Positions 13,479-36,925 of a DNA stretch of 42,145 bases are shown one piece after another. A program made the translations under genes and the position numbers. Under the pieces are notes generated by a model. It was not told where the DNA came from. It did no database searches and saw only the letters and a list, made by a program, of their open reading frames with translations. Origin of the DNA: an uncultured Opitutales bacterium. Lineage in GTDB: Bacteria; Verrucomicrobiota; Verrucomicrobiia; Opitutales; UBA9783. Each line of letters opens with the position of its first letter. Position 1 is the first letter of the stretch. The stretch spans positions 1 through 42,145 of the forward strand of contig CALXMI010000037.1 in assembly GCA_944389435.1 (NCBI GenBank), given 5' to 3'.

Positions 13479-14546
13479 TCAAATATAATTATTATCAAAC
13501 CGTTCCCAGTCAATGCCATGGTATAAGAATGTATCCAATGCCGCTCTTTCTTTAAGAAAAGTCGACGGAATCTCATCAATTATGTGCTTTAATATTTCTT
13601 TGTCTTGATTGAATTCATACTTCAAACATAAATTCAACCATTTTTCGGAAACTTGAACACAATCATTATATTTCACTAATGCAGAATTAGCTTCATCGGT
13701 AAGTGCAATTTCCCATTTCTCTATTATATATTCCATAGATGTTTTTATCATACACCTGTGTTCGTAAAGCTTCTTGGCAGCGCTCGTTAATCCTCTGAAC
13801 CAATCACAAAATTTATCTCCGTTAATCTCGGTTTGAAGAACTTCTTTAAAAGCGTCCAAACAAGCAATACCCATATAATGATAGTGGTGGTAACCATAAT
13901 CTCCTATTTCTTTTGGATGATGAATAATACATATCTTACCATCTAATTCTTTCCTAATTTTCAAATATGATTCAAAGGCACAATTATCCGGTTTATAGGT
14001 AGGATTCAGTTTCATTGCTGTGGCAGGATATTGAAAATTTATAGACAGTTCCATACCACGAAACGGTCTGTCTAAATAGTATTTTTTTATGTCTTCTATC
14101 GTGGCTTCTATATGTGAATAATCAATACATATGGTACGAAAGCCTCTTTCTGCAAGCCCCACAGAAATCAACTGCCCTTTACTATCGTCAAATCCGTAAA
14201 ATAGAACCTCATGATAATGATCTTCATTTATATATGGCTTAATATACATTATAATATAATATCCGCTTTTTAAGTTATCCTTTAAAGTATCTACTATATT
14301 GGGACTATTCATATCAAAGACTTTCAAAGGTTTTCTTTGCAAAATTTCTTCATGATATGACGGCGGATACATATTCATTTCTCCAAAATGAAAATTTCCG
14401 GCATCCGAATATAAATTATAATGTGAAGCTATCCAGTCCCTGTAATATTGCGATGTTTTTATAATAGCCAATCTATTGTATATCCAGCAATCTGTTACGG
14501 AATCAACATCTTCTATATGTATGGGTAGCTTTAATATCTCTTTCAT
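13479..14546 (-). CDS. BtrH/C39-like putative cysteine peptidase or acyltransferase
   Basis: A protein of 355 residues starting after AAAGGACAG. The N-terminal part has DCW (C20) and, about 90 residues on, YHEVLFYGFDD (H112). This spacing and the 'YYIIMYI...H..LFYGFDD' strand pair recall BtrH_N/papain-like folds in peptide and antibiotic clusters. The C-terminal 180 residues are helical and unrecognised. It has the same orientation as cluster 1 but is separated from it by about 0.9 kb of decayed sequence. Membership in the pathway, for example in leader removal or acyl transfer, is inferred; the catalytic pair is a guess from spacing. Confidence 0.72.
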   Translation of the reverse strand: MKEILKLPIHIEDVDSVTDCWIYNRLAIIKTSQYYRDWIASHYNLYSDAGNFHFGEMNMYPPSYHEEILQRKPLKVFDMNSPNIVDTLKDNLKSGYYIIMYIKPYINEDHYHEVLFYGFDDSKGQLISVGLAERGFRTICIDYSHIEATIEDIKKYYLDRPFRGMELSINFQYPATAMKLNPTYKPDNCAFESYLKIRKELDGKICIIHHPKEIGDYGYHHYHYMGIACLDAFKEVLQTEINGDKFCDWFRGLTSAAKKLYEHRCMIKTSMEYIIEKWEIALTDEANSALVKYNDCVQVSEKWLNLCLKYEFNQDKEILKHIIDEIPSTFLKERAALDTFLYHGIDWERFDNNYI

Positions 14547-14899
14547 TTAATTCTGTCCTTTATTCATAATTTTTAAATTTATGTCATTGCAAGACATTCG
14601 AAGACGAAATAATAAATATTATTTATGACTTGATTTTTATATTGCGTTGCATTTTTCGATAATTGTTTTTATATAAATATGTTTAGTGCTAGAAATTCTA
14701 TTTGTTTTTCGCTTATTACAACATTACTTAAAACGATAAATAGCTGAGTCCTTATGAATAAGTGACAATTTGAGCTCGGTAGTATGAGAAAATAACGTGT
14801 TTGTAGTTTTGCACCATATTGAGCATTAGAAGTTTTTACGAAGCAAAAATGAAAGATTGTGCGCAACAAGAGCAACAAAAAAGTCAGATAAAAGTGAAG
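14547..14899. other. Gene-poor AT-rich spacer
   Basis: I see no supported gene. A 69-codon minus-strand frame at 14669-14878 has no good ribosome site and an unconvincing composition. It may contain remnants of the same decay that produced the fragments at 14900-15311. Confidence 0.5.
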
Positions 14900-15100
14900 T
14901 TAGTAAGTGCGAAATATTTTATTATTTTCTCCAAAAGTGAAATTGTATAATTTCGCATCTACAAAAAGACTGTAATGCGAAGCTATCCAATCTCTATAAT
15001 AGGGCGAATTTTTAGCTATAGTCAATCTGTTATATGTCCAACATTCTGTAACAGATTCTATATCATCAAATTTTAACGGCAACTCAAATGGATTAATCAC
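14900..15100 (-). pseudogene. Truncated paralogue of the BtrH-like gene
   Basis: A GTG at 15100 follows AAAGGAG. About 50 codons then match the start of the gene at 13479-14546: 'DIESVTECWTYNRLTIAKNSPYYRDWIASHYSLF' corresponds to 'DVDSVTDCWIYNRLAIIKTSQYYRDWIASHYNLY', including the CW pair. Similarity stops after FGEN and the frame soon ends, so only the N-terminal sixth of the protein remains. This is a decayed duplicate. Confidence 0.8.
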
Positions 15101-15464: not shown

Positions 15465-15881
15465 TCACTTTAACAAACTAAATGATTTCGTGATTTGTTT
15501 AATTTGTAGTTCTTCACCAAATATTGCTATACCTATAGGATTAAGATCAAATAGACAACTTTCGGTAATTGTTTTTTTATATACATCAAATTTATTGTTC
15601 AACGCTTGCCCTTCTTCTGTGAATATAACTAAAACAATGTTGTTAGTTTCATTGGTTTTCTTTATCGTTGAACTCAATTTCAACATTTTACTTAGATTTG
15701 TTTTCAATACAATAACATTGCACCTGATTGCACTATGTATAAAATCTGTTTTATCACAAAGTAGGTGCGAATTGTAAATATCATCACAACACTTTGCTAA
15801 TTGCCCCATCAAAATAGACGCTATATTAGCCGACACTCCAGGAGAAAGTTTTTCATTTACAATAATTGCAACCCTATTCAC
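15465..15881 (-). CDS. DUF2000-like protein, last gene of cluster 1
   Basis: A protein of 138 residues. The opening 'RVAIIVNEKLSPGVSANIASILMGQL' follows the DUF2000 pattern (a hydrophobic strand, then 'NE.L..G..AN..A.L'), a small alpha/beta fold related to peptidyl-tRNA hydrolase II. I chose the GTG at 15881 because GGGAGG lies seven bases upstream; an in-frame ATG at 15908 has no site. It overlaps the preceding gene by 8 bases, so it belongs to the cluster 1 operon. Its reaction is unknown; one possibility is to act on an activated intermediate made by the two genes before it. Confidence 0.72.
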   Translation of the reverse strand: MNRVAIIVNEKLSPGVSANIASILMGQLAKCCDDIYNSHLLCDKTDFIHSAIRCNVIVLKTNLSKMLKLSSTIKKTNETNNIVLVIFTEEGQALNNKFDVYKKTITESCLFDLNPIGIAIFGEELQIKQITKSFSLLK

Positions 15882-16434
15882 AAAAACACCTCCCTGATTT
15901 ATTTGCAAAACATACCCAAGGCATTATTACGCTATTTCTTAATATAGCTATAATATTCAATCCAAAATGCTCTGCACATAGTTTATTTGTTATTGATATG
16001 CAATTTGCATCTTCGTCCTGAATAAGTTCCTTACAGGCTTCTATGTTCGAATTAACATAAACAACATCTAAATTATCAACTTGTATATTTATTTCTCTTA
16101 ATAACGAATTGGTTGCTTGATGAAGATAGATTTTATCTGTTTTATGTAAATTTATGTTAGTGTTTTTGCTAACACAAACCAGAGGAGGAAGAGACTCTAA
16201 GAAAACTTCTGTGGCAATTAATTTGTTATCCATAATAAACTCGCTTATATTTGAGTATGCTGCAGGAACCAATATGCAAGAAAGTTCTTTTCTTTTCAAA
16301 GCGTCGGCAGCCGCCTCAAAAGAGTGATATGGTATAATCTCGGAATTGACATTCCATCTTCTTGCTATATACATGGAACAAGTCAAAGAACCAGAAGAGT
16401 CTCCTAGTGTACCAACTTTACATTTACGGGTCAT
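15874..16434 (-). CDS. Prephenate-dehydratase-like / type 2 periplasmic-binding-fold protein
   Basis: A protein of 186 residues. The start 'KVGTLGDSSGSLTCSMYIAR' followed by 'FEAAADALKRKELSCILVPAAY' resembles the first half of prephenate dehydratase (GPxGSFS ... A...G..D..V.P.EN). The usual catalytic Thr-Arg-Phe segment is not seen, so dehydratase activity is doubtful. The ATG at 16434 has GGAGG upstream and overlaps the preceding stop (ATGA). It may bind or remodel an amino-acid-derived substrate in cluster 1. It could equally be a binding protein without catalysis. Confidence 0.65.
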   Translation of the reverse strand: MTRKCKVGTLGDSSGSLTCSMYIARRWNVNSEIIPYHSFEAAADALKRKELSCILVPAAYSNISEFIMDNKLIATEVFLESLPPLVCVSKNTNINLHKTDKIYLHQATNSLLREINIQVDNLDVVYVNSNIEACKELIQDEDANCISITNKLCAEHFGLNIIAILRNSVIMPWVCFANKSGRCFCE

Positions 16435-17138
16435 TTTGCATCCTCCGTGAAACTGTTTATACAAGCTCTTCGTTCATTTGTTATAGTCAAATTATATTGT
16501 ATAGGGCTATCAAAACAATCCGCATCAACCAATGTTGTGTGAAACTCACCATTTTCACCGAATGGATCTATTCCGATAGATTTAAAGTGCTGATATGCTA
16601 ATCGATCATATTTTTCCCCAAGCCACTTTGTATCTATGGATGGATGGTTAATTGTAGTAATTATACTTTTAATTTTTCTGTTTTCTAGTTCCGTTATCAA
16701 ATCGTCATACGGAACTAGATACAAAGGGAAACATGGAATCATGCCGGCACTCTTACATAATTTGACTTGTATTATTATATTATCTAATGAATTCAAGTCA
16801 CCAAAAACGACATATTTTACTCCTTGCCGGCAGAAATCTCTGTATAACTTCGTGATTTTATCCCAACGCACCCACCATTTGTAATTAACATATATTATTG
16901 GGATGCGAAGTTTTTGAGCTTGTATATCTATTAAGCTTTGTTTTTGCTCATGAAACAACGATTCATTTTTATCGCTATCTAAACAATGGATTAAACTAAC
17001 AGCTTTACCAACCTCTAATGCTTTGGAAAGAGCAAGGCCAGAATCTTTTCCTCCACTGTACATAAAAACGAACGATTCATTTGTCGGTAAATTTCTATAT
17101 GATAAAAGATTTTCTTTATCAATGACAGTATAGTTCAA
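16431..17138 (-). CDS. Dph6-like N-type ATP pyrophosphatase (ATP_bind_4)
   Basis: A protein of 235 residues with the PP-loop SGGKDS at 28-33 and, near residue 196, GENGEFHTTLVDA. Both are hallmarks of the diphthine-ammonia ligase (Dph6/ATP_bind_4) family. Known members adenylate a carboxylate and form an amide. Bacteria lack diphthamide, so a biosynthetic use in cluster 1 is likely: amidation of the peptide or of a small adduct. The start is TTG at 17138 with AGAGGTG upstream. It is coupled to the next gene by ATGA. Confidence 0.85.
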   Translation of the reverse strand: MNYTVIDKENLLSYRNLPTNESFVFMYSGGKDSGLALSKALEVGKAVSLIHCLDSDKNESLFHEQKQSLIDIQAQKLRIPIIYVNYKWWVRWDKITKLYRDFCRQGVKYVVFGDLNSLDNIIIQVKLCKSAGMIPCFPLYLVPYDDLITELENRKIKSIITTINHPSIDTKWLGEKYDRLAYQHFKSIGIDPFGENGEFHTTLVDADCFDSPIQYNLTITNERRACINSFTEDAK

Positions 17139-17166
17139 TAATTTACACCTCTTATCTGTTTAATAT

Positions 17167-18945
17167 TTATCTATAATTCTCTGCTTGCTTACTAAACATC
17201 TCATAGTATTTGCCTCGTAGAGAGATCAACTCATCATGTGTGCCAACTTCTTTGACCCCCCCATCACCTATCAAATAAATTCTATCAGCGTTTCTAATAG
17301 TAGAAAGGCGGTGTGCAATGATAATAGTTGTCGATAAATTGCTACTGTCGAAAATAAGTTTTGTCATCTCATATTCTGCAATGGGATCCAATGCAGCTGA
17401 AGGCTCATCAAATATTAATAGTCCAAAATCCCCAGATAAAAGTCTTGCGATCCCAATCTTTTGAATTTCTCCTCCGGATAACATAATTCCGCCTTCATCA
17501 AATTCTTTCGTTACATTAGTGTGAATGCTTGCATTGTTTTTGATTAAAACATTTTTAAGATCCGCTCGCATTATAATATCGTGAACTTTTTTTTCGTCGG
17601 AATTATCATATATACACAGATTATCGGCAAAGGACATTGCATAAACATTTGTGTTTTGAAAAGCTACACCTATTCTTCGTCTCAAATCATTTATATCGTA
17701 GTTACGTATATCAACATCATTTATACATATGCTTCCTTTGTTAACATCATAAAACCGCATTAATAACTTAACTATTGTTGATTTTCCTACTCCATTTTCA
17801 CCTACTATAGCAATTTTTTCACCAGGATTGATTTTTAAATTTAAGTGATTTATTCGGAAATTTGAATTTTGATAATTAAAGGAGATATTGTTAAACGAAA
17901 TTTTAAATGCGCCCGTTGGAGCCATAATACCGGCATTTTTTTCTGTTTCTATGTAAGATTTCAGGTCGAAAAAATTTTTAATTCTTTTCGCATACATACT
18001 TAGACGATTTGCGTCTTTAACATAATAAAACATTTCATTTAACGCATTTTTTAAAGTTTCTACTGCTACCATCATAGTTATGTAAGAACCCACTGTTGCA
18101 ATATTTCCGGTATAAATACCATGCGCAATATTTAGAATAACGAATGTTCGCGCAATGTAAAACGTGAAGGTTCCTGTCAAAGCCCACGGAATCATTTTAA
18201 AAGCGAATTTCTTTATAACATTGATTTTCCCATCTTGGGCAGCATTGTATCCTGCGAACAGATAATCTTTTATATTGGTGCTTTTTAAATCTGCGGCATA
18301 GTTATTAGTATAGAAAACTCTATGATAATAATTCAGTTTTCTATCATATGGAATTATCTCCGTATCTTTTTTCACATCATAATAGTTTGTTAATATATGC
18401 ATTATATTCTCAACGATAGTCCCGATTATGGTGACAATCACAGCGATGGGACTTAATGTCGCAATAATAGAAAGCATTGAGATAATGGTTATAATGGAAG
18501 ACACCATTCGATTAACCATGTTTTGAGCATCGGCAGCTTTGGTTGCATACTCACTAACGGCCCATGTGTAACTATCGAAATACTCTGGATCATCAATATA
18601 TCTGTAATCCGTATTTATTGCCTTACGATAAGCGTTAAATTTCAACTGTGCATCAATCTGTGGTAACATTCTATTTTTGCAGAACATATTAAAAATATCT
18701 TCATAAACGGGCTGAAACATCAAAATTAACTGCATTAATATCACAATTAAACATATATCTTTAAAGGAATATCCCCCCTGTAACATATTGATAATTGTGC
18801 TCGGTAGATAGACCCCCACTAATTGAGCAATAGGTATTATTATTCCCCAAAAAAACAAAGAAAAAACTACAAACATTTTTCCATATTTCCAATATGGTTT
18901 GTATAGCCATGCTATATTCTTAATTGATTTAATTATTGTTTTCAC
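17167..18945 (-). CDS. ABC exporter (membrane plus ATPase) of cluster 1
   Basis: A protein of 592 residues. Hydrophobic segments lie at about 22-48, 60-75, 155-190 and 255-300, followed by an ATPase domain with Walker A GENGVGKST (about 380), signature LSGGEIQK, Walker B LLIFDEPSAALD and switch AHRLS. It is a full-length half-transporter, presumably a homodimer, without an N-terminal C39 peptidase, so it does not cleave a leader itself. The start is GTG at 18945 inside the end of the kinase gene, with AAGGA upstream. It probably exports the cluster 1 product. Confidence 0.92.
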   Translation of the reverse strand: MKTIIKSIKNIAWLYKPYWKYGKMFVVFSLFFWGIIIPIAQLVGVYLPSTIINMLQGGYSFKDICLIVILMQLILMFQPVYEDIFNMFCKNRMLPQIDAQLKFNAYRKAINTDYRYIDDPEYFDSYTWAVSEYATKAADAQNMVNRMVSSIITIISMLSIIATLSPIAVIVTIIGTIVENIMHILTNYYDVKKDTEIIPYDRKLNYYHRVFYTNNYAADLKSTNIKDYLFAGYNAAQDGKINVIKKFAFKMIPWALTGTFTFYIARTFVILNIAHGIYTGNIATVGSYITMMVAVETLKNALNEMFYYVKDANRLSMYAKRIKNFFDLKSYIETEKNAGIMAPTGAFKISFNNISFNYQNSNFRINHLNLKINPGEKIAIVGENGVGKSTIVKLLMRFYDVNKGSICINDVDIRNYDINDLRRRIGVAFQNTNVYAMSFADNLCIYDNSDEKKVHDIIMRADLKNVLIKNNASIHTNVTKEFDEGGIMLSGGEIQKIGIARLLSGDFGLLIFDEPSAALDPIAEYEMTKLIFDSSNLSTTIIIAHRLSTIRNADRIYLIGDGGVKEVGTHDELISLRGKYYEMFSKQAENYR

Positions 18946-19786
18946 TTTCTGTCATTCCTTGGTAAAATAAAAAATTAGTAATCGCTATAAAATTATTCGT
19001 ATTACGGTAAGCAACTTCATAAACTTTTGTGTTTTTTAGAAGATTGTTTATATCTTGAAATAGCGTACACATATCTTTAGAATGTCTTACATTATTGATA
19101 ATTGTTTTAAAAGCTTCACTTTTATCTAGTTTGCGTACGAAATCATTTTCGTTGTTGTACTTAGGCAATATTACTACGTCTATATTGTGCACACTAGGAC
19201 TTGTCTTTGGGGGATAATAAATTGTTCGCATTGTTTCTCCATCAAAAGTCTCACCCACCATATTGCTTTCCATCAATTGATCAACATTTTCTCTCACGGA
19301 AATAGGCATATTAAATCCGATATACTTACTTTTAGAAATATAAACGCAATCGTCGTCTATGTATTCTGCGTGCAAAACCAACGACAAATAGCTTGTTAAT
19401 GTTGTTTTACCGGATTTTCTTTCTCCTATCAATAAAATATTTTTATTGTTTAATCTCACACAAGAACCATGAATAATTGTACAATTCAAAATATTTGCAT
19501 ACCAATCTTCTAAAGCCCCAATTAATTGAAAAGCAAAGTGCTTGTCAATTGCATTGCAAAAAATACGATAGGGTGCTTTGTCGATGCATTTTTTGAAGGT
19601 GTTTCCAGAAACTATTTCTAACGCAATATCATTATCCGTGCTTTCATTTTTTGTATCTAAAAAAGTTTTTTTATAAGTGGAAAGCAAAGTTTCAAACAAA
19701 CCAACATTTTTCAAATAAAGGTTTTTGTCTATATGTAGTTTTAATGTAGTGTCATTAATGGTCCGCTTAAAATAAAGCACGATCAT
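18929..19786 (-). CDS. HPr-kinase-like peptide kinase of cluster 1
   Basis: A protein of 285 residues. An IIHGSCV segment (H106) is followed by a Walker A LIGERKSGKTTL (about 119-130) and YIDDDCVYI, the order seen in HprK C-terminal-like kinases. Such kinases occur in RiPP clusters beside PqqD-like proteins; in paeninodin-type lasso clusters they phosphorylate the C-terminal serine of the precursor. The precursor at 21536-21640 ends in serine, so it is a plausible substrate (inference). Its ATG is preceded by AAGGAG. It overlaps the ABC gene by 17 bases. Confidence 0.82.
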   Translation of the reverse strand: MIVLYFKRTINDTTLKLHIDKNLYLKNVGLFETLLSTYKKTFLDTKNESTDNDIALEIVSGNTFKKCIDKAPYRIFCNAIDKHFAFQLIGALEDWYANILNCTIIHGSCVRLNNKNILLIGERKSGKTTLTSYLSLVLHAEYIDDDCVYISKSKYIGFNMPISVRENVDQLMESNMVGETFDGETMRTIYYPPKTSPSVHNIDVVILPKYNNENDFVRKLDKSEAFKTIINNVRHSKDMCTLFQDINNLLKNTKVYEVAYRNTNNFIAITNFLFYQGMTESENNN

Positions 19787-19798
19787 TCTCCTTATCTT

Positions 19799-20098
19799 TT
19801 AAACGTATTCTTTGATTAGTTCTTCGCAACAGAACTCTTTCAAAATTTTATTTACATCATCAAGCAAGCTTATATTTGTTTTTTGCGGTGCATATGTGGA
19901 TATAATTTTTTCACAAATATATTGGCTGCTGATATCTAAATTTTGTTCATTTGCCTCATTAAGAATATTCCAAATAAAAGAAGCGGATTGATTTAAAGAA
20001 ATTATACGCTTGCGTTGCTTGTCGTATGCAACAATCTCGTTCTCTATATTTTCTATTTCAAGTTTCGTTAATATCATTTCTTTGCCGTTAATTTTCAT
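19799..20098 (-). CDS. PqqD-like RiPP recognition protein
   Basis: A protein of 99 residues with the PqqD layout: a beta hairpin 'EIVAYDKQRKRIISLNQSASFIW' (D24, N36 and W43 in typical places) followed by helices. PqqD domains bind leader peptides and bring them to radical SAM enzymes. It lies between the SPASM enzyme and the kinase, with TAGGAG before its ATG. It is expected to bind the leader of the 34-residue precursor. Confidence 0.85.
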   Translation of the reverse strand: MKINGKEMILTKLEIENIENEIVAYDKQRKRIISLNQSASFIWNILNEANEQNLDISSQYICEKIISTYAPQKTNISLLDDVNKILKEFCCEELIKEYV

Positions 20099-20108
20099 AA
20101 TTATACTC

Positions 20109-21461
20109 CTAATTGCTTGTTAATTTATAAACAGAATTTTTTCCAAAAAGAACGTTGTCGACTAATTCAGCTTTCCAACCAAAGCATGTATTTCCACAAA
20201 GAATCTCGGTAAATACATACGACCAGTACTTTCGAATTAATTGACACTCATAATCCCTGTATTTTGTATCAAAGGCATTGTCTCTCACAACCTTTAGCGG
20301 ACAGCCGCCTTTGCAAAAACGATACGCTATACATCCTCTGCACTCATCAAAAGAATTCTTCACCACATCTAAATGTTGATCGGTATAGCTGTTATAAAAA
20401 TCCACCATATTGTCTTTTATTTCGGCAACGATGGTTTTGAACTGCTCGGCCTCAATACAGTTGATAATTTTTCTATCTGGCATCAGCCAAAAACATTCTG
20501 CAAATGTAGCTCCGCAACAGTATTCTGCAATAGTATTATTAAATATCGGTGTAGAAATATATAACTTGTAATTCTTTTCCTTTGCGTAGTTATGTAAGTT
20601 CACATAATGGTGAAAGAAATCGTATTTTTCTATGTTGTATTGATCTTTGTTGCCGTTTTTTAATGCACGCCCAGACGGAATTATTGGCATAATGCTCCAC
20701 TCGTTTATACCAGAACTGTTGTTTGCAATGTTATCACAAATTTGCTTGAGGTTTTCAAAGTTTTCATACCAAACAGTTGATCTTACCGTTAGTGAGCGTC
20801 CGCTTTGGCTAAAGTCTTGAAGAGTTTTTTCGACGACTGGAGATGAATTTGTTGTGTCAGAACATTTTCTGTTTCTGTTTTGCAAAAAAGATGTTCCATC
20901 ATACGACAACATAATTTTGTCAAAATGTTTAATTATAAATTTTCTCTGAGAGTTATTAAGCATTCCATTTGTCGTTAATTCAAAATAATAAGGCACAGAG
21001 CAGTTATCACAAAGATTTTTTATGGCACGTATTGACTCTTTAAACAACTCCCAATTAAATGTAGGCTCACCACCTCCCGTGAAAAAGAATCGCAAAGGTT
21101 CAGAATCATCGTTCTTATCAATAAATTGATATATTTTCCTCTTTTTAATTGCTTCTTTAACAAAAACGAGAATATCTTTCACTGACAGTAAGTCCTGATT
21201 TCCGCTGGTTGAAGAATAACTACAGTAATTACACCTTAATTGACAATTGTATGTCAAACATATACCAATCAAATTTATTGGCTTGTTTTTGGCAGACATT
21301 TTTGTTTTATCTAATTTATCTAAACAACTTTTTAATTCTTCATAATTATCAGTTTTTCTACAAATAGTATTTATTTCGGTTATTACGCTTTGTGCTGCGT
21401 CTTTGGGATAAAATATCAGTCTTTCCGAGTCGAAAATATAATTGCCTATATAGTGGTACAT
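20109..21461 (-). CDS. Radical SAM/SPASM peptide maturase of cluster 1
   Basis: A protein of 450 residues. CQLRCNYC (C73, C77, C80) is the 4Fe-4S site and FFTGGGEPTF binds SAM. The C-terminal part is SPASM-like, with CCGATFAEC and CRGCIAYRFCKGGCP supplying ligands for auxiliary clusters. Enzymes of this type make thioether, C-C or similar crosslinks on peptides. The ATG at 21461 has GGAGGA ten bases before it and is preferred over 21509. The gene follows the precursor directly, so the likely substrate has the core CCPTGKTNS. The bond formed cannot be predicted; a cysteine thioether is one option. Confidence 0.92.
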   Translation of the reverse strand: MYHYIGNYIFDSERLIFYPKDAAQSVITEINTICRKTDNYEELKSCLDKLDKTKMSAKNKPINLIGICLTYNCQLRCNYCSYSSTSGNQDLLSVKDILVFVKEAIKKRKIYQFIDKNDDSEPLRFFFTGGGEPTFNWELFKESIRAIKNLCDNCSVPYYFELTTNGMLNNSQRKFIIKHFDKIMLSYDGTSFLQNRNRKCSDTTNSSPVVEKTLQDFSQSGRSLTVRSTVWYENFENLKQICDNIANNSSGINEWSIMPIIPSGRALKNGNKDQYNIEKYDFFHHYVNLHNYAKEKNYKLYISTPIFNNTIAEYCCGATFAECFWLMPDRKIINCIEAEQFKTIVAEIKDNMVDFYNSYTDQHLDVVKNSFDECRGCIAYRFCKGGCPLKVVRDNAFDTKYRDYECQLIRKYWSYVFTEILCGNTCFGWKAELVDNVLFGKNSVYKLTSN

Positions 21462-21535
21462 AAACGCATCTTCCTCCAAATAGATGGTGTAAATAGTTCT
21501 AGACACCATTTATATATATATTTCTTATGATAGCA

Positions 21536-21640
21536 CTATGAGTTCGTCTTGCCGGTAGGACAACACGATGCAGCGCGAGCCTCAATAGCACGAAGTTCTT
21601 CTTCGTCATACACTACGATAGCAGGTGTTTCGTATACCAT
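21536..21640 (-). CDS. RiPP-like precursor peptide of cluster 1 (34 residues)
   Basis: The peptide opens MVYETPAIVVYDEEEL, has a helical middle (RAIEARAAS) and ends CCPTGKTNS. A strong ribosome site (GAGGAGGG) lies five bases before the ATG at 21640. It is the first gene after a near-consensus promoter and directly precedes the SPASM maturase, the usual precursor position. The acidic leader, the Ala-rich junction and a short core with paired cysteines support a modified peptide. It shares its pattern (P-x-[IV]-V, then EL, then an A-rich helix, S and C) with the second precursor at 22010. A C-terminal serine could be the kinase target. Confidence 0.85.
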   Translation of the reverse strand: MVYETPAIVVYDEEELRAIEARAASCCPTGKTNS

Positions 21641-21961
21641 AATTTCCCTCCTCTCTCATTCATTCTAATATGTTTTTGGTTCGCTAGAACTATTTACTGA
21701 GTTTAAACGATAAATAATACCGAGTTACAATCCATTAGCAAAATCCGTGCATTTTTAAAAACAATTGTAAGTTTGTTCCGTATCAGATTATAATATAACA
21801 GTTTATATTTGTCAATATTTCGTTTAGTGATTTTAAAAAATAAAATAAAAAAACGTCAAATTGTAGCCATTTTGTAGATAATCTCTTGATTTTTGATAGA
21901 ATAAATGTTATTATATTCAAAAAGCATCGTTTGGTTGTTTTAGGTTTTGCTTCTTAACATA
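21641..21961. other. Leader region and promoter of cluster 1, otherwise no gene
   Basis: From the promoter near 21800 to the precursor ATG there is an untranslated leader of about 140 bases, AT-rich, without a clear riboswitch fold or terminator. Between the promoter and the terminator at 21962 (about 21816-21961) I see no supported gene; the small frames there lack ribosome sites. Confidence 0.6.
21787..21815 (-). promoter_or_regulatory. Consensus sigma-A promoter of cluster 1
   Basis: On the minus strand, TTGACA (21815-21810) is followed by exactly 17 bases and then TATAAT (21792-21787), a perfect match to the vegetative consensus. It drives the precursor and the downstream enzymes. Such a strong promoter suggests constitutive transcription unless a repressor binds. 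Confidence 0.85.
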
Positions 21962-22009: not shown

Positions 22010-22120
22010 TTATCTGAAATCTCCGGCGAAACATTGTCCGGATCTTGCAGCTGCTTGAATATGTTTTGCCAACTCTTTGGCACTCAATTCTACAACCACA
22101 GGCTTAACCCATTTTTTCAA
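22010..22120 (-). CDS. Second RiPP-like precursor peptide (36 residues, TTG start)
   Basis: The peptide opens MKKWVKPVVVELSAKEL, has an AKHIQAAARSG middle and ends QCFAGDFR. The start is a TTG at 22120 that overlaps the stop of the regulator gene (TTGA), with AAGGGGGG seven bases upstream, so translation is coupled. It is followed at once by a terminator. The pattern 'W.KP.V..LSA.EL...I.A.A.SG.C' is typical of precursors handled by PqqD and radical SAM proteins. There is no enzyme gene downstream on this strand, so cluster 2, divergent on the other side of the regulator, is the likely maturation set. Cluster 1 enzymes are the alternative. Confidence 0.78.
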   Translation of the reverse strand: MKKWVKPVVVELSAKELAKHIQAAARSGQCFAGDFR

Positions 22121-23178
22121 CTAAATCCCCCCTTATCTTTATAATATTTTTCTAACATACCGCATAGGGTCTGAAAGTACTGTTTATTAATGCTGTAAAG
22201 AATGGTTCTCCCGCGATTTCGCGTCTTAAGCATACCAGCTTTTATCATTAAAGATAGATGGTAATAAGCATTTGTTCCAGTAAATCCGAATTCTTGCTCC
22301 AAATCTTTTATTGTTATTTCTTCTTTTTCATATATCAAGTTCAAAACCGAAACTCTGTTTGATTCAGAAATTGCGTTTCCGAAATTTTCAAGCTCTGGCA
22401 ATCTAAACTGAACAGTCAAATAATTGATATGTTCAATATAATCAATACCTAATAATATTACAACTTCATTTGAATAATAGTGTGTTTTAACACAATTCTT
22501 ATGATATAAGCAGAACGTGATGTAAATATCGTCAAAACAAGAAAAATCGCCTTTTTGATTTTTCGTTTGCATAAGTTGGTTTAAAACAATATCAAAATCA
22601 AAATTATCTTTAAGTTCACTCAATAATTTATGTTTTGCATCATACTTTTGAGATAACGCAAAACTTTTCTCCATCAACTCATATGACAGTTTGTGGATAA
22701 CCGTTTCAGGCTCTATAAAGAACGAATATAACGCACTTTTAATTTCACCGCTATATGTGGAATTTTTGATGAACTTATTAACATAGGTTATCGAGTCCTT
22801 ACATTTTATGACATCTTCTTCGCGAATATCCTTAAAGTAGAATCTAATAATATTCTCTTTTACCTTTTCGTGATTGGATAATTCTTCTTGCACCATAGAG
22901 AGATTATAATTTTCAAAAACAAAATGTGCTTTATATGGCTCGTAATAATATTTAGTTATTACATTCTTTTTGTCTTCTGTGAAATAGAAAAACAAAAGAA
23001 GCTCATCTGAAATCGGTGAAAATTCATTTAGTATTTTACTGTAATAGTCAGTATCTTCACTTGATTTACTATAGTTTATGAAATTTGTCAGACAATAATC
23101 CTTGTTAAAATTAAAAGCAAATAAGAAAAAAAGGTCGTATATAAAGCCGGGTTCATCAAGAAATTTAATATTTCTCAT
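22117..23178 (-). CDS. Winged-helix (ArsR-like C-terminal) regulator coupled to precursor 2
   Basis: A protein of 353 residues. The last 80 or so form a winged helix: ITIKDLEQEFGFTGTNAYYHL is the helix-turn-helix and TRNRGRTILYSI the wing. The first 260 residues are a large unrecognised helical domain, perhaps a ligand sensor. The ATG at 23178 has AAGGAGG eight bases upstream and is preferred over the GTG at 23181. It has a paralogue at 35873-36817 with the same layout. It is transcribed divergently from cluster 2 across a palindrome and is coupled to a precursor gene, so peptide-responsive autoregulation is plausible. Confidence 0.85.
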   Translation of the reverse strand: MRNIKFLDEPGFIYDLFFLFAFNFNKDYCLTNFINYSKSSEDTDYYSKILNEFSPISDELLLFFYFTEDKKNVITKYYYEPYKAHFVFENYNLSMVQEELSNHEKVKENIIRFYFKDIREEDVIKCKDSITYVNKFIKNSTYSGEIKSALYSFFIEPETVIHKLSYELMEKSFALSQKYDAKHKLLSELKDNFDFDIVLNQLMQTKNQKGDFSCFDDIYITFCLYHKNCVKTHYYSNEVVILLGIDYIEHINYLTVQFRLPELENFGNAISESNRVSVLNLIYEKEEITIKDLEQEFGFTGTNAYYHLSLMIKAGMLKTRNRGRTILYSINKQYFQTLCGMLEKYYKDKGGFS

Positions 23179-23203
23179 CACCGTATCCTCCTTAACTTCG
23201 TTA

Positions 23204-23859: not shown

Positions 23860-23898
23860 TCATTGGCAAATTATAAATCGCAAATCAGGGAGAATATT

Positions 23899-24708
23899 AT
23901 GTTAACGATAGCCATACACGCACCATTCCAAACAAGCTTTACCATAAAAACCAACTGCAAAGAGTTAGCAAATGCAATTGTGTTAAGGCACGGTAAATAT
24001 GCAACTAAAAGTACAACTCAATCAGATATTACAATTATCGCTGAAAAAGAACAATCAGGTTATAGCATATACTTTAACGGCAATTCTGTAAAAACAAATG
24101 CTCCCTTAAAAAAAATAGAAGACATTATGTATGACAACCGTAAATATGAAGAAACAATATTTGCCGTTCACGGCGGTGCTGTAGAATACAATAATGGCGC
24201 ATATCTTGTTGTTGCCTCCACTACAAGCGGAAAAACCACCCTTACATCATATCTAGTTTCAAACGGTTTTGGATATATTACTGATGATTGCATACTTCTT
24301 GACCGTGAAAGCTTTAAAATATATCCGTTTACAACTCCCCTGCATTTGCGCAAAGGCGGTTATAACGCTCTGAAAGCTTTAGGTTGTGCCCCTGAAAGCT
24401 ATGATTTTTTAGACTCGGTTTCCATTAAAAGATATGTTTATACGCCTAATAATTCTGTTTCAAAACCGCTGCCGCTTAAAAAAATATTTTTTATCACAAG
24501 AACGGAAGATACGAATATGATAGAAGAAATGAATACCACAGAAAAAATAACCGCTCTTCTCAAATCGCCTATTACTGAATATGAAATTGGCGGCAGTTAT
24601 CTTTCGTTTATTTCCAAACTGTCCGCTATTCCCTGCAAAAGGCTTTATTACAGCAATATGGATTTTGTCGCCGAGGTAATTAAATATGAACAACAATCTT
24701 ATAATTAA
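23899..24708 (+). CDS. HPr-kinase-like peptide kinase of cluster 2
   Basis: A protein of 269 residues. The order FAVHGGAVE (H91), then VVASTTSGKTTL (105-115), then YITDDCILLDRE matches the HPr-kinase-like protein of cluster 1, but the first glycine of the P-loop is alanine. The ATG at 23899 has AGGGAG upstream and is chosen over 23863. It overlaps the next gene by 23 bases, giving a kinase plus PqqD pair as in cluster 1. It may phosphorylate a precursor serine or threonine; Ser27 of precursor 2 is a candidate. Confidence 0.8.
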   Translation: MLTIAIHAPFQTSFTIKTNCKELANAIVLRHGKYATKSTTQSDITIIAEKEQSGYSIYFNGNSVKTNAPLKKIEDIMYDNRKYEETIFAVHGGAVEYNNGAYLVVASTTSGKTTLTSYLVSNGFGYITDDCILLDRESFKIYPFTTPLHLRKGGYNALKALGCAPESYDFLDSVSIKRYVYTPNNSVSKPLPLKKIFFITRTEDTNMIEEMNTTEKITALLKSPITEYEIGGSYLSFISKLSAIPCKRLYYSNMDFVAEVIKYEQQSYN

Positions 24709-25405
24709 AATTCTGCCTGCTGTTTTAAAAACCAAAGGACAGGCAGAACTCACTGTAACAGGGACGAGCATGGAACCGACTCTAATTGAAGGTGATTTGA
24801 TAACAATCATAAAGTGTGATAATTACACAATCGGCGATATTCTTGTTTTTGACTATAAAAACGAGGGGCTTCTGGTTCACAGATTACTAAAAACATCCAA
24901 CCGATACTTCTGTAAAGGCGATAATTCTTTTAGGCTTGAAGATATGCCTGCAGAAAACATTATTGGAAAAGTCACAGCTGTAAACGGAGTTCCAATTGCC
25001 GTTTGGCAAAAATGGAAAATGGATTTGTCTTATGCTGTCAATCGATCATTTGTTAAATCAAAATATGATATTACAAATACAATGCAGACAGATATATATA
25101 AACTGTATTCAGCCTTAATTTTAGGAAAAGAGGAAAACAAAATGAATTACAAGAAAACAGATAAAATGGACTTTATTCTTTCAGATGAAACTTCACTTGC
25201 CGTATTTGATCCGGAAAGCAACAATACATACTTTTTTGACGAAACCGGGATAGACATTCTAAATTGTCTTGACATCCCTTGTGATATTGAAATGCTTTTA
25301 GATATGCTTTGCAATATTTATTCAGCATCCCCTGAAGATATCAGGGCAGATGTTGAAGAATTCTTAGCAGATACAGTAACCAAAGGAATTGTTGAAATAG
25401 TATGA
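24686..25405 (+). CDS. S26 (SipW-like) signal-peptidase domain fused to a PqqD domain
   Basis: A protein of 239 residues. The first part is peptidase-like: VTGTSMEPTLIEGD (S28), GLLVHRLLK (H65) and FCKGDN (77-80). This is the Ser-His arrangement of SipW/SEC11-type enzymes. The last 90 residues are PqqD-like (LAVFDPESNNTYFFDETGIDIL). No clear membrane segment is present, unusual for S26 enzymes. An in-frame ATG at 25142, preceded by AAGAGGAAAAC, could give the PqqD domain alone. The fusion would let one protein bind and cut the leader (inference). It overlaps the radical SAM gene by ATGA. Confidence 0.82.
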   Translation: MNNNLIIKILPAVLKTKGQAELTVTGTSMEPTLIEGDLITIIKCDNYTIGDILVFDYKNEGLLVHRLLKTSNRYFCKGDNSFRLEDMPAENIIGKVTAVNGVPIAVWQKWKMDLSYAVNRSFVKSKYDITNTMQTDIYKLYSALILGKEENKMNYKKTDKMDFILSDETSLAVFDPESNNTYFFDETGIDILNCLDIPCDIEMLLDMLCNIYSASPEDIRADVEEFLADTVTKGIVEIV

Positions 25406-26448
25406 ACATTAAAACCGTTTATGTTGAAATAACTAATTTCTGCAACTTAAATTGTATCACTTGCTATAACCGATCGGGCTTAAACTGTCAAAGAACAGAA
25501 TTGTCATTTGAACAAATCGAGAATATTATCAAACTTTTTACGCCTTTAGGATTGAAAAGATTTTTATTATCAGGTGGAGAACCTACACTGCATTCCGAAT
25601 TTGACAAAATTCTTGATTTAATCGATAAATATCCAAAAATTAATTTTGGTATTGTTACTAACGGAACAAATCATAATAAAAAGCTATTAGAATGCCTTAA
25701 CTCAAGAGACAATTTAAAACTTCAGATAAGTCTTGACGGTTCCTGTGAAGAAATAAATTCCAAAACCCGCGGTATAGGCAATTTCAAAAAGACCTTAAGC
25801 TTTGCCAAACAAATACGCACCGCTCATAATATTCCTCTGCTTAAAATGGTCATATCACAAGGCAATTATGACGATGTAGAAAATTTCTGCAATTTAGCGA
25901 TTTCATTAGGCTTTACACCTGAACTTGCATTTATATACAAATCCGGAAACGGGTGTGACGAATGGGGCACTAAAGAGCTTACATCCATACAAAAATTAAA
26001 AATATTGAAACTTGTCGAGCGCATTAATAAAGAAAGAAATGCAGGTATATTTCTTCCAATCTGCACCACAAAATGTCCGTTAGCAGAAGGAATCAATGAA
26101 CTTTCTTTCTGTATTAAAGTAGACGGTTCAATTCAACCATGTCAATCCCTTTACAGTGAAAAATATACTGTCGGAAATGTTCTTTTCTTCGATAAAAAGC
26201 TATTTTTACAGAATATAAATAATATTTCCGATTTAGCAAGGCAGCGTTGTGAACAAGACTATGGCTGTGAAAAATGTATGCTGAATGACATTTGCGGCAG
26301 AGGATGCATGGCAGAAGCTGTAAATCTTCACGATAATCCATTTGCAAGTGACGGCAACTGCGAATATAGAAAACAACAATTTATTAACTTTAATCTAAAA
26401 GGAGGTATATCTGTACTTGAAAAAGAAGACAAAACATTCCACGCTTAG
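25402..26448 (+). CDS. Radical SAM/SPASM peptide maturase of cluster 2
   Basis: A protein of 348 residues. CNLNCITC (C14, C18, C21) is the 4Fe-4S site and LLSGGEPTL binds SAM. The C-terminal SPASM region has FCIKVDGSIQPCQSL and CEKCMLNDICGRGCMAE, then a last cysteine in GNCEYR. It follows the peptidase-PqqD fusion directly (ATGA overlap) and overlaps the first ABC gene by 32 bases. Substrate and bond type are unknown. Precursor 2 (a single Cys30) is the nearest candidate. Confidence 0.9.
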   Translation: MNIKTVYVEITNFCNLNCITCYNRSGLNCQRTELSFEQIENIIKLFTPLGLKRFLLSGGEPTLHSEFDKILDLIDKYPKINFGIVTNGTNHNKKLLECLNSRDNLKLQISLDGSCEEINSKTRGIGNFKKTLSFAKQIRTAHNIPLLKMVISQGNYDDVENFCNLAISLGFTPELAFIYKSGNGCDEWGTKELTSIQKLKILKLVERINKERNAGIFLPICTTKCPLAEGINELSFCIKVDGSIQPCQSLYSEKYTVGNVLFFDKKLFLQNINNISDLARQRCEQDYGCEKCMLNDICGRGCMAEAVNLHDNPFASDGNCEYRKQQFINFNLKGGISVLEKEDKTFHA

Positions 26449-28228
26449 CAACAATTTATACATACTGAAACAAATACATATTGCAAGCCGCGGAAGAATA
26501 TTTTTTGAACTTTCGAGTATTATACTAAACACCGTTTCAAATATACTACTTGATGTTTATATGTTCAAATATATTATTAATGGTATTCAAAAGGGCTTAG
26601 ATTTTAAAAGACTTGTCGGTTTTATCCTGATTATTACGGCGTTTCATATTTTCACCGCTACCGTTGTCGACTATTTTTGGGAAAAATTCGCACCTGTCTC
26701 GAATCAAAAAATATATAGCCATATTCAAAAAAACTTGTTCGAAAAGGCCTCGTCTGTCGAGTTTGCCTGCTTTGAAGACCCTGACTTTTACGATAAATAT
26801 GTTAAAGCAATAAGCGAAGCATACAATAGAACCAATGAGGTTCTAAGGTCGTTGTGCGACATTGTATATTTTATTTTTAACGCTTTTGCTACCTCGTTTA
26901 TCATATTTACAATTGATCCCGTGCTGATAGTATTCGCGCTGATACCCTTTATTGTAAGTATTCTGTTCGGGAAAAGGCTTAACAAAGTGCGATACAATTA
27001 CACTATGGAAATGCAGGAAAAATCCAGAAAACGCGACTATGTAAAAAGGGTGTTTTACCTTGCCGACTACGCAAAGGAAATGCGGCTCACGAATATAAAC
27101 AGGGTTATGTTCAAAAAATTTTACGAGGCGATAAAGGAGCTTAAGGGGGTTATTAAAAAGCACGGGCTTAAGGTTGCGTTATTGGATTATTTGTTCATAG
27201 CGGTTAATGATATTATCGTTTACCTCGGCGCTATTCTATATTCCGCCTATAAAACCCTTGTTTCAAAAACAATGCTTTACGGCGACTGCGTGGTTGTTAT
27301 AAACGGAATAAACAATGTCGCGTGGTCACTGCGCAATATGGCTGATGTTTTTATTCAGTTTCAGAATCACTCGCTTTATATCGACAATCTGCGCTATTTC
27401 CTTGAATACAAGCCCGCAATTTATGAAAACAGGGAGGGACTCGACCCGCCCGATACCTGCGCGCTCACCCTTAAAAACGTAAGCTTTAAATACGCAGGTC
27501 AGGAAGATTATTCCCTTAAAAATATTAATTTCACAATAAAGCAGGGCGAAAAAATCGCCTTGGTCGGTCACAACGGCGCGGGTAAAACCACCCTTGTTAA
27601 GCTGTTAATGCGGCTTTACGATGTGACCGAGGGCGAGATACAGCTAAACGGCAGACCGATAAAGGAATACAAGCTTAAAGGCTACCGTAATCTGTTCTCG
27701 GTTGTGTTTCAGGATTTCAAGGTCTTCGCCGTATCGGTTTTGGAAAATATTTTGCTTAAAGCAGATATTACTAAGGAAGAAAAAAATCGCGCGGTAAGCG
27801 GTATGAAGGACGCGGGTATTTATGACAAGGTAATGTCCCTTGAAAAGGGCTATGAAACCGTGCTTACAAAGGAATTTGACGAAAACGGAGCGGTGCTTTC
27901 GGGCGGAGAGACCCAGAAAATCGCTATATCAAGGGTGTTTGCAAGGGACTGCCCCATCGCGATTTTAGACGAGCCTTCAAGTGCGCTTGACCCGCTGGCG
28001 GAGTACGCCATGTACGAGGCTATGATGAATGCGTGCAGGGACAAGGCGGTAATCTTTATTTCCCACAGGCTTTCCTCCGCGGTTTTGGCGGACAGGGTTT
28101 ACCTTATGGAAAAGGGAGAAATAATTGAAAGCGGCACCCACCGAGAGCTGCTCGAAAAGGGCGGCAAATACGCCGATATGTGGAGCAAGCAGGCGGAAAA
28201 ATACCGTAAAAAGGAGGAAGATGTATGA
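26417..28228 (+). CDS. ABC half-transporter 1 of cluster 2
   Basis: A protein of 603 residues starting at TTG after AAAGGAGG. The membrane domain spans about residues 30-320 and the ATPase has Walker A GHNGAGKTT (about 383), signature LSGGETQK, Walker B IAILDEPSSALD and SHRLSS. No C39 peptidase domain is present. It forms an ATGA-coupled pair with the next gene, probably a heterodimeric exporter. By eye, GC content rises inside the gene near 27000. Confidence 0.92.
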   Translation: MKKKTKHSTLSNNLYILKQIHIASRGRIFFELSSIILNTVSNILLDVYMFKYIINGIQKGLDFKRLVGFILIITAFHIFTATVVDYFWEKFAPVSNQKIYSHIQKNLFEKASSVEFACFEDPDFYDKYVKAISEAYNRTNEVLRSLCDIVYFIFNAFATSFIIFTIDPVLIVFALIPFIVSILFGKRLNKVRYNYTMEMQEKSRKRDYVKRVFYLADYAKEMRLTNINRVMFKKFYEAIKELKGVIKKHGLKVALLDYLFIAVNDIIVYLGAILYSAYKTLVSKTMLYGDCVVVINGINNVAWSLRNMADVFIQFQNHSLYIDNLRYFLEYKPAIYENREGLDPPDTCALTLKNVSFKYAGQEDYSLKNINFTIKQGEKIALVGHNGAGKTTLVKLLMRLYDVTEGEIQLNGRPIKEYKLKGYRNLFSVVFQDFKVFAVSVLENILLKADITKEEKNRAVSGMKDAGIYDKVMSLEKGYETVLTKEFDENGAVLSGGETQKIAISRVFARDCPIAILDEPSSALDPLAEYAMYEAMMNACRDKAVIFISHRLSSAVLADRVYLMEKGEIIESGTHRELLEKGGKYADMWSKQAEKYRKKEEDV

Positions 28229-30000
28229 AAGAAAAGGGCAGCGTACTGTTTATGATTAAGCAAGCCGTAAAATATGTTCCCTCCTTCTGTCTCTTTACAG
28301 TTGCGGAGGGTGTTGTTTGGGGCTGTATACACTCCTTTACAAGTACGCTCTTTATAAAGGCGCTGTTTGACAGAATAGAAAGCGGCGTCCCCTATTCTGA
28401 AATACTCCTGCTTGTCCTTGCTATGGCGGTTTTTCTTATTTCAGCCTACATATTCCACGAATGGTACTGGCAGTTTATAGAGCCGAAAGCGCGGCAGGAG
28501 CTGCACAAAAAAATGCAGGAGCAGCTATACAAAAAAGCGGCTTCCATAGACCTTGCCTGCTATGACCGCCCCGACTTTTACAACGACTTTGTCTGGGCGA
28601 TTAACGAGGCGGACTCAAGAACAATCGCAATATGTGAGGACATAGGCAAAATAATAAACCGCCTTATCACATCGGCGGTTATAATAGGCGTTTTATTCAC
28701 GATAGATTTGTGGATTGTGGCGGCGGTGCTTTTTTCGGTTGTCTTCAGCGTAGTTTTGCAAAGACTTATTACAAAAATTTATTTTAAGCGCGACAACGAG
28801 CTTAAACCCTTTCAACGCAGGGCTGAATATATAAGCAGGGTTCACTATCTTGCGGACTATGCAAAGGAAATCCGAATGAGCGAAGCCGAGGACTTACTCT
28901 TAAAGAATTTTGACACGGCTGTAGGAAGCAATATTTCAATAACCAAGTCCTACGGCAATAAGCTGTTTTTTCTGAATCTTACAAGAACCACCTTTACCGC
29001 CGTAATGTTTGACGCGGTTATTACAATACTGCTACTTTATAAGATGATGATAGAAAAATCCGTAACTCTCGGCGGATTTGCCGCCACATTCAGCGCTATG
29101 TGGAAGCTTTTTTGGACGCTTAATAATCTTATGGATTATTTTGCAAAATTCAAGGAGCATAAGCTTTATGCTAACAAGTTCAGGGTGTTTCTTAATTACG
29201 AGCCAACCGTGTGCGATAAGGAGGGTTGTACCGAATTAACCGCCCCGTTTAAGACCCTTGAGCTTAAAAATGTCTCCTTTGCCTACCCTGAAGCCGAAAA
29301 AAACATAATAAACGGCATAAATATGACCGTAAAGGCGGGGCAAAAAATCGCCCTTGTTGGCTACAACGGTGCGGGCAAATCAACCCTTGTAAAACTGCTT
29401 TTAAGACTATATGATGTTTCAGGCGGCGATATTTTTATAAACGGCAAGAGCATTAAGGATTACACCCTTTGCTCCTACCGAAACAAATTCGGTACCGTTT
29501 TTCAGGATTTTCAGCTCTACGCCGCCGATATTGCCGAAAACGTCCTTACCGACGAATATTCCGAAGAAGACCAGTCCCGCGTACTTGAAGCCCTTAAAAA
29601 CAGCGGATTTGAAGAAAGGCTTTCTTCCCTTAAGGAGGGTATTCACACACCGCTTACAAAGGAATTTGACCAAAGCGGAATTAACCTTTCGGGCGGCGAG
29701 GCGCAAAAAGTCGCAATATCAAGGGTGTTTGCAAAGGACTGCGAGATAGTTATTTTAGACGAGCCCTCAAGCGCACTCGACCCTATGACCGAATACGAAT
29801 TAAACAATACTCTGATGACCGCCCTTGACAAAACGGTTATAATAATTTCCCACCGCCTTTCTACGACCCGTATGGCGGACGTTATCTATATGCTTGAAAA
29901 CGGCGAGATTATTGAACAGGGCAGTCACGACGAGCTTATGCAAACGGGCGGCAAATACGCCGAAATGTTTTTAAAGCAGGCGGAAAAATATAATTTTTAG
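28225..30000 (+). CDS. ABC half-transporter 2 of cluster 2
   Basis: A protein of 591 residues coupled by ATGA to the previous gene, with AAGGAGG upstream. It has an N-terminal membrane domain, Walker A GYNGAGKST (about 378), signature LSGGEAQK, Walker B IVILDEPSSALD and SHRLST. Both partners have an intact ATPase core. It is clearly related to its neighbour and to the cluster 1 exporter. Its base composition is GC-richer than that of the genes on either side. Confidence 0.92.
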   Translation: MKEKGSVLFMIKQAVKYVPSFCLFTVAEGVVWGCIHSFTSTLFIKALFDRIESGVPYSEILLLVLAMAVFLISAYIFHEWYWQFIEPKARQELHKKMQEQLYKKAASIDLACYDRPDFYNDFVWAINEADSRTIAICEDIGKIINRLITSAVIIGVLFTIDLWIVAAVLFSVVFSVVLQRLITKIYFKRDNELKPFQRRAEYISRVHYLADYAKEIRMSEAEDLLLKNFDTAVGSNISITKSYGNKLFFLNLTRTTFTAVMFDAVITILLLYKMMIEKSVTLGGFAATFSAMWKLFWTLNNLMDYFAKFKEHKLYANKFRVFLNYEPTVCDKEGCTELTAPFKTLELKNVSFAYPEAEKNIINGINMTVKAGQKIALVGYNGAGKSTLVKLLLRLYDVSGGDIFINGKSIKDYTLCSYRNKFGTVFQDFQLYAADIAENVLTDEYSEEDQSRVLEALKNSGFEERLSSLKEGIHTPLTKEFDQSGINLSGGEAQKVAISRVFAKDCEIVILDEPSSALDPMTEYELNNTLMTALDKTVIIISHRLSTTRMADVIYMLENGEIIEQGSHDELMQTGGKYAEMFLKQAEKYNF

Positions 30001-30013
30001 GAAGTGTACGAAT

Positions 30014-31201: not shown

Positions 31202-32247
31202 ATATATCGAAGCCGTTCGCGATTTAGCAAACGAAAAACAAACAAGCTTTGATATTTCTGAAATATTATACAATCATGGTTGTATCTATCTTCTTTCAAA
31301 AATAAAGGGCAAGAATAAATATACAGATAGATTAAAAGCAGAGAATTTATTAAATAAAATATGTATTAACGAAAGATATAAAACCTGTTCTGCAGTCTTC
31401 CGCGAATTTAAAGAAAACAATATCTCCTATGCCGTAATAAAGGGCGCTGTATTATCTGCTGCGGCATATAATAATCCGTTTTGTCGACAATCAGGAGACA
31501 TAGATATACTTATCAACCGAAAGGATATTGATAAAATAAAAGAAATAATGCTTCGAAACGGCTTTGTCCAAGGAAAAATTACCGAAAATGGAGTTGAGCC
31601 TTTCTCTCGCAAGGAAATATTATTCCAGACCGCTATGTCTCACCAAACTGCTCCCTTTGTTAAAAAAAACAAACAATAAAATATGTCCATATATTAATGT
31701 TGATCTTAATTTTGATATAATGTGGGGTGAAAGTGAAACAAAGGCAGATATGGAATTTGTTCTTCAAAACACTATGGAAACGGCAATACTGGGCGTGATA
31801 TTTAATAAGCTCTCTCCGGAAATGGAATTCATATCGCTTTGCCTGCACCACTATAAAGACTTAAATTCCATTTATTTGCTATATGAGCGTGGATTAACAT
31901 TAAGCCATTTCTGCGACATATATTTTTTCATTAAGAATTGTAACATAGATTCAGAAGCTCTTTATAATTATTGTTTAAAATTGAATGTCGGCAAATATGT
32001 TTACTATTGCTTATACTACACCAATCTTATATTTGACGATGAAATCATAAAAAAATATATGTTATTATTGCATTCAACTGAATCAGATGCAATTCTTAAT
32101 TCCTTCGGCCTTTCCGATAAAGAACGGCAAAGCTGGGATATTGACTTTTTTACAAGGCTGTTTGATTCAAATATTAGTCAATATTTGGAAAATTCACTTT
32201 CTGAATCTGATTTGAAGAAAATAATTATAAATCAACAGCTTATGTAG
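31194..32247 (+). pseudogene. Frameshifted nucleotidyltransferase (NTP_transf_5-like)
   Basis: The first frame (31194-31679) has the nucleotidyltransferase core: ISYAVIKGAVLSAAAY, then QSGDIDILI with the metal-binding DxD. It stops at TAA after a run of eight A (31662-31669). The +1 frame continues the protein (NVDLNFDIMWG onward to 32247) as a natural C-terminal half. With seven A the two would join into one frame of about 350 codons, the usual family size. The family occurs beside HPr-kinase-like genes in paeninodin-type clusters. It may be a pseudogene, a sequencing error, or be rescued by slippage at the A-run. Confidence 0.8.
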
Positions 32248-36842: not shown

Positions 36843-36862
36843 AAAAAGTATACTTTTTGATA
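36843..36862. repeat. Half-degenerate copy of a 24-bp palindrome
   Basis: AAAAAGTATACTTTTT (36843-36858) is a perfect palindrome with GATA on its right. The same core lies in the hairpin at 36972-37021 (TATCAAAAAGTATACC). It is upstream of regulator 2 and 0.15 kb from the resolvase gene. It could be an operator or a recombinase-binding half-site. Confidence 0.6.
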
Positions 36863-36896
36863 AAACTTACCATAATAATATTCTTAGTTTAAAATC

Positions 36897-36925
36897 TTGA
36901 TTTTAGACACTTTTTTTGATATAAT
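36897..36925 (+). promoter_or_regulatory. Promoter-like sequence without a downstream gene
   Basis: TTGATT (36897-36902), a 17-base spacer and TATAAT (36920-36925) form a good plus-strand promoter. Only about 45 bases separate it from the bidirectional hairpin at 36972-37021, so a transcript of roughly 90 bases without a credible frame would result. Confidence 0.5.

Follow-up and report, generated by a model that had tools for sequence, protein, structure and literature searches.

The 34-residue open reading frame located at positions 21536–21640 on the minus strand of the window, i.e., the whole stretch of 42,145 nucleotides analyzed, is real and not a product of chance. As proposed in the initial annotation, whose coordinates proved to be exact, it very probably encodes a precursor peptide, judging from its ribosome-binding site, its leader motif, and the RiPP operon located directly behind it. 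The gene, hereafter referred to as precursor A (MVYETPAIVVYDEEELRAIEARAASCCPTGKTNS), almost certainly provides the raw peptide for a radical SAM (rSAM) enzyme and an HPr-kinase-like enzyme, yielding an exported natural product. With a probability of roughly 60%, precursor A represents the precursor of an RRE-dependent exported RiPP made by the enzymes of its own operon.

The strong ribosome site previously ascribed to the frame was confirmed, as AGGAGG is located 6 nt 5' of its ATG. In a comparison set comprising 500 start-to-stop ORFs of 20–70 aa from the whole window, precursor A was the only one featuring a Shine–Dalgarno match of at least six bases at a distance of 4–10 nt. Its GC content amounts to 49% versus 26% in the 300 bp upstream. 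The promoter TTGACA-17-TATAAT (21787–21815, minus strand) agrees at 12 out of 12 positions with the sigma-70-type sequence, representing a consensus match only, and a strong terminator of 15 pairs (21998–21965) closes the unit upstream. Because of this perfect promoter and the upstream terminator, precursor A heads its transcript, as had been suggested originally. The leader is indeed acidic, with one Asp and five Glu residues versus two Arg residues before AASCC, as read from the sequence, and the previously highlighted tail residues are all present, namely C26 and C27, a Thr, and the C-terminal S34. The N-terminus, MVYETPAI, contains the leader motif Y3xxP6xI8 (YETPAI). A [Y/W]xxPx[L/V/I/F/A] leader motif is known to be bound by discrete RREs, as in lasso-type RiPPs, and is shared by PQQ leaders (PMC13381572). 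Within the first 15 residues, this motif was found in 4 out of 472 small ORFs of the window, precursor A being among them; the remaining three are the peptide encoded at 22010–22120, an antisense frame overlapping it, and one further ORF.

Precursor A is the first gene of a co-directional operon comprising eight genes on the minus strand (cluster 1), separated by gaps of 10–28 bp or overlapping each other. The next gene, starting 26 bp after precursor A, encodes a radical SAM/SPASM peptide maturase (20109–21509) of 466 aa, or of 450 aa when starting from Met17 at 21461. It matched PF04055 (9.9e-10) and, above the cut-off, the SPASM model TIGR04085, while its best NCBIfam relative was the PapB family (1.8e-24; 86.6 bits versus a cut-off of 340). 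It is followed by a discrete RRE of the PqqD family (19799–20098; 99 aa; PF05402, 26.1 bits, cut-off 23.4), an HPr-kinase-related protein (18929–19786; 285 aa; TIGR04352, 8.6e-6, far below the cut-off), and an MsbA-like ABC exporter composed of permease and ATPase (17167–18945), in which no peptidase domain was found by profile search. The operon is completed by a Dph6-like ATP-pyrophosphatase (16431–17138; PF01902, 8.3e-27), a prephenate-dehydratase-like protein consisting of the catalytic domain only (15874–16464; PF00800, above the cut-off), and a DUF2000 protein (15465–15908; PF09391, 3.2e-16). Profile searches detected no signal-peptidase-like or other leader peptidase within the operon (15465–21640), and no Rfam family was found in the window. 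Searches for relatives of the kinase and the exporter returned nothing informative. Approximately 0.9 kb past the DUF2000 gene, a 355-aa protein without known family is encoded, and a truncated duplicate of its N-terminus is located between both genes (14900–15100), protein gene and duplicate together spanning 13479–15100; searches for relatives of this protein were uninformative, and its single-sequence structure model was too poor for interpretation.

The kinase of cluster 1 carries H106, the P-loop SGKTT, and IDDDC, which are conserved with the kinase of the adjacent cluster 2 described below, and possesses the His-Lys-Asp-Asp set. This same set is found in paeninodin-type kinases, whose phosphorylation target is the C-terminal Ser of lasso precursors (PMC9266682), so the argument made previously from the C-terminal serine is sound as a prediction. 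The match to paeninodin-type clusters was, however, only partial, as these also need a lasso cyclase and a B2 peptidase, neither of which was detected in the contig or in the 88% complete genome bin, and as the maturase next door is of the rSAM/SPASM type. Assignment of the frame to the phosphorylated-RiPP precursors stands as a prediction but was incomplete regarding the class.

The RRE and the leader appear to fit each other. In LppB, the Tyr of the leader is held by N33 and D70, while the Trp-preferring RREs deviate at these sites, paeninodin RREs having Gly at the N33 site and PbaB1 having Gln at the D70 site (PMC13381572). According to a mapping via hmmscan coordinates, the cluster 1 RRE features N36 and D81 at the N33 and D70 sites, its peptide carrying Tyr, and the cluster 2 RRE features D185 and D222, the nearby peptide carrying Trp. 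RRE residues and leader residue thus seem to agree in both clusters. A single-sequence model of the cluster 1 RRE was of low confidence and displayed no wHTH fold.

Based on these observations, the following pathway is proposed. The PqqD-type RRE would bind YETPAI via N36 and D81 and present the core to the rSAM/SPASM enzyme, which would modify it, most likely at one or both of C26 and C27. The resulting linkage can hardly be named from the sequence, because the PapB score is far below the cut-off and precursor A lacks C-x3-D/E, the Cys pair being the obvious candidate target. The HPrK-like kinase would target a Ser in the manner of phosphorylated lasso and LPP peptides, S34 being the most likely residue and S25 a second candidate, because the LPP kinase LppK acts on an internal serine, namely S3 of the core (PMC13381572). 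The core modifications are in each case predicted. Removal of the leader would perhaps be accomplished by the RRE-fused signal peptidase of cluster 2 or by a host enzyme, the ABC exporter would release the product, and the Dph6-like, prephenate-dehydratase-like, and DUF2000 proteins may both provide a small building block and attach it. Counted in favor of precursor A being an RRE-dependent RiPP precursor were the unique strong Shine–Dalgarno site, the leader motif, the GC contrast, the perfect promoter and first position, the operon members recognized by profile, the His-Lys-Asp-Asp set of the kinase, the Asn and Asp of the RRE together with the Tyr leader, the parallel gene make-up of the LPP-like neighbor cluster, and the inverted repeat around the gene, which did not arise in 2000 local shuffles. 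Counted against it were the lack of a homologous precursor in the searches performed, of a leader peptidase in the operon, and of an acidic residue at Cys+4, as well as the weak similarity between precursors A and B and the RRE model lacking a wHTH fold.

Precursor B refers to the frame at 22010–22120 on the minus strand, which is likely a second RiPP precursor. It encodes 36 aa from a TTG start (MKKWVKPVVVELSAKELAKHIQAAARSGQCFAGDFR) with the motif W4xxP7xV9 (WVKPVV), its start overlaps the stop of an ArsR-like gene (22117–23181), and the terminator at 21998–21965 follows it. The window contains two long ArsR-type regulators (22117–23181 and 35873–36817), which resemble each other in their C-terminal HTH, each having a large N-terminal portion. 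Whole-length similarity between A and B is weak, 3.4% of shuffles scoring as well. Cluster 2 (23863–31201, plus strand) encodes an HPrK-like protein, a signal peptidase–RRE fusion, an rSAM enzyme, two MsbA-like exporters, and ACP-FkbH. It is followed by a nucleotidyltransferase (PF14907; 31107–32247, plus strand) split over two overlapping frames, representing either a broken gene or a sequence error. The five core genes by which the LPP family is defined (PMC13381572) all occur in cluster 2, namely signal peptidase, RRE, HprK, nucleotidyltransferase (split), and MsbA exporter, with rSAM and ACP-FkbH as extras. The LPP precursor pattern YxxPxVLxHQxIxFETxxS is absent from precursor B, which has WVKPVVVELSAKELAKHIQAAARS instead. 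Searches for relatives of the signal peptidase–RRE fusion were uninformative.

The arrangement of both clusters raises the question of whether they form one pathway with two precursors, in which precursor A would be an LPP-type substrate of the neighboring signal peptidase and kinase. Clusters 1 and 2 (the latter spanning 23863–32247) are located back-to-back on the contig, their kinases are related, as are their exporters, and the leader peptidase missing from cluster 1 is present in cluster 2 as an RRE fusion. However, each cluster possesses a kinase, an RRE, an rSAM enzyme, and an exporter of its own, the RREs differ at the leader-sorting position (N36 versus D185) in parallel with the leaders (Tyr versus Trp), and precursor A is set apart from B by a terminator followed by a new promoter. 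A shared pathway is accordingly considered rather unlikely. The leaders of both clusters differ in the exact residue (Tyr versus Trp), and their RREs at one of the positions, shown in 2026 to separate LPP and lasso pathways. The two clusters would represent an independent natural test of this sorting rule, in which rSAM enzymes are involved.

The distal genes point to a further possibility. The prephenate/DUF2000 module stands out as the most unusual component of cluster 1, and the three genes at the operon end hint at an unusual small molecule made alongside the peptide. The prephenate-dehydratase-like protein is 41% identical to a protein encoded on a Priestia plasmid, where it is adjacent to DUF2000 in the same order as in cluster 1. 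The neighbors of the Priestia pair (L006:6044–7010) are an L-amino-acid ligase, an MFS pump, and an aminotransferase, so that the set looks like an uncharacterized dipeptide pathway. BacA-type decarboxylases belong to the prephenate-dehydratase fold, and Dph6 makes an amide using ATP. In the bacilysin operon, BacA acts as a prephenate decarboxylase, while BacD ligates amino acids (PMC9147277). Owing to the resemblance of the Priestia set to this operon and to the amide chemistry of Dph6, coupling of a building-block pathway to the RiPP is conceivable by analogy. In its full form, this would lead to a hybrid, namely an rSAM-modified, phosphorylated peptide joined by the Dph6-like protein to a non-protein amino acid derived from prephenate by the prephenate-dehydratase-like and DUF2000 proteins, which is regarded as unlikely. 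DUF2000, an uncharacterized family, would thereby gain a biosynthetic setting. A further scan with the pair returned no match, and class and phylum samples searched for the prephenate-dehydratase-like protein were also empty.

A PqqD-type RRE combined with an rSAM/SPASM enzyme, a short tail, and a motif also occurring in PQQ leaders would suit a redox cofactor or signal in the style of PQQ or mycofactocin, featuring a very short core and no antimicrobial role. The operon, however, includes a kinase and an exporter, its setting is that of a mobile element, and no dehydrogenase partner was noted, leaving a low probability for a cofactor precursor.

Precursor A is probably not a lasso precursor, because contig and genome bin yielded neither a lasso cyclase nor a B2 peptidase. 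The [Y/W]xxPx[LVIFA] motif, the kinase, and the C-terminal Ser are compatible with a paeninodin-type lasso precursor whose cyclase and B2 peptidase are encoded elsewhere. Searches for the B2 transglutaminase-like peptidase (PF13471, Transglut_core3) in the window and the genome bin, which is 88% complete so that absence is not proof, returned no match. For the asparagine-synthetase-like cyclase (PF00733, Asn_synthase), no match exceeded the 21-bit cut-off in the genome bin, a single one of 16.5 bits being located on another contig. Furthermore, paeninodin leaders are of the W-type and their RREs have Gly rather than Asn, the tail of approximately ten residues is short for a lasso core, and a dedicated rSAM gene adjoins precursor A. 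The lasso identity of precursor A was rejected for want of a B2 peptidase and of any above-cut-off cyclase in contig and bin; it is very improbable.

The precursor A gene is enclosed by a perfect 14-bp inverted repeat (21489–21697, minus strand). Its 3' arm, GTAAATAGTTCTAG (21489–21502), spans codons 3–7 of the rSAM gene in its long form and sits just ahead of an internal GGAGG preceding Met17, while the 5' arm (21684–21697) is the exact complement of GTAAATAGTTCTAG. Although the repeat attracted attention only in retrospect, none of 2000 local dinucleotide shuffles contained one of this length; the region as a whole folds with an unremarkable energy (z −1.45). On the mRNA, base pairing between the arms would bring the 5' leader together with the beginning of the rSAM gene, which could hold translation of the maturase below that of the precursor, so that the enzyme would be made in lower amounts than an abundant precursor A. 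It is barely conceivable that the ORF is a translated leader controlling the rSAM gene without giving rise to a product, as its location inside the repeat and the overlap of the 3' arm with the beginning of the rSAM gene would allow, since the RRE motif, the GC contrast, the complete RiPP operon directly behind, and the unremarkable folding energy all argue against it.

No relative of the cluster 1 rSAM enzyme above approximately 25% identity was found in its own genus, family, order (372 genomes), or class (384 genomes), and searches of plasmids, phages, and viral contigs yielded only distant matches or none. A scan of 84,980 genomes returned no match, which is weak evidence of absence, as only six exact 8-residue patterns outside the conserved motifs were used. 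Homologues of precursor A were found neither in plasmids nor in 303 genomes of the order, and the genomes searched yielded no homologous cluster. Two distant rSAM relatives (24% and 22%) possess small Cys-rich frames of another kind downstream (L003:865–1056 and L004:1185–1406), encoding related peptides that end in ...RIS[QH]CSCNCN..PC... and appear to constitute a separate precursor family. The window corresponds to an entire contig from a genome bin of 0.95 Mb that is 88% complete. Because its VirD4-like gene is 44% identical to a Subdoligranulum plasmid gene, a conjugative element probably carries both clusters as cargo. The contig also encodes a 1132-aa protein with a NACHT-type NTPase-like motif and membrane segments, as read from its residues (32271–35669), and two long inverted repeats adjoin a serine recombinase gene (36848–37020).

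Among known systems, bacilysin/dapdiamide-like dipeptide clusters share the prephenate-dehydratase-like protein, as compared via the Priestia plasmid homologue; the pair of cluster 1, however, belongs to a RiPP operon that encodes a Dph6-like ATP-pyrophosphatase but lacks an ATP-grasp ligase. PapB-type ranthipeptides provided the best-scoring model for the rSAM enzyme (1.8e-24), but 86.6 bits are set against a cut-off of 340, and precursor A has neither C-x3-D/E nor an acidic residue at Cys+4. HprK-like, PqqD-like, and radical SAM/SPASM proteins occur together in SynChlorMet (SCM)/HPr-rel-A cassettes (TIGR04248–04251, TIGR04352, TIGR04353), with which the likeness is limited to cassette logic, all cluster scores being below the family cut-offs. 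Paeninodin-type lasso systems resemble cluster 1 in leader motif class, HPrK-like kinase, and C-terminal Ser, whereas cluster 1 lacks a B2 peptidase and a lasso cyclase, possesses an rSAM enzyme, and has a leader and an RRE of the Y-type and not the W-type. LPP (Popov et al. 2026, PMC13381572) shares with cluster 1 a PqqD-type discrete RRE whose Asn and Asp suit Tyr leaders, a YxxPx[V/I] leader, an HPrK-like kinase, an MsbA-like exporter, and the lack of a lasso cyclase. In contrast to LPP, cluster 1 is devoid of a signal-peptidase-like leader peptidase and a nucleotidyltransferase, adds a radical SAM/SPASM enzyme and three further genes, and encodes a precursor without the HQxIxFETxxS extension. 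Cluster 1 is likely a variant of the phosphorylated YxxP/RRE RiPPs combining a Tyr-type RRE, an rSAM enzyme, and a kinase, and would, if so, connect peptide phosphorylation of the HPrK type with rSAM chemistry acting on a single short precursor.
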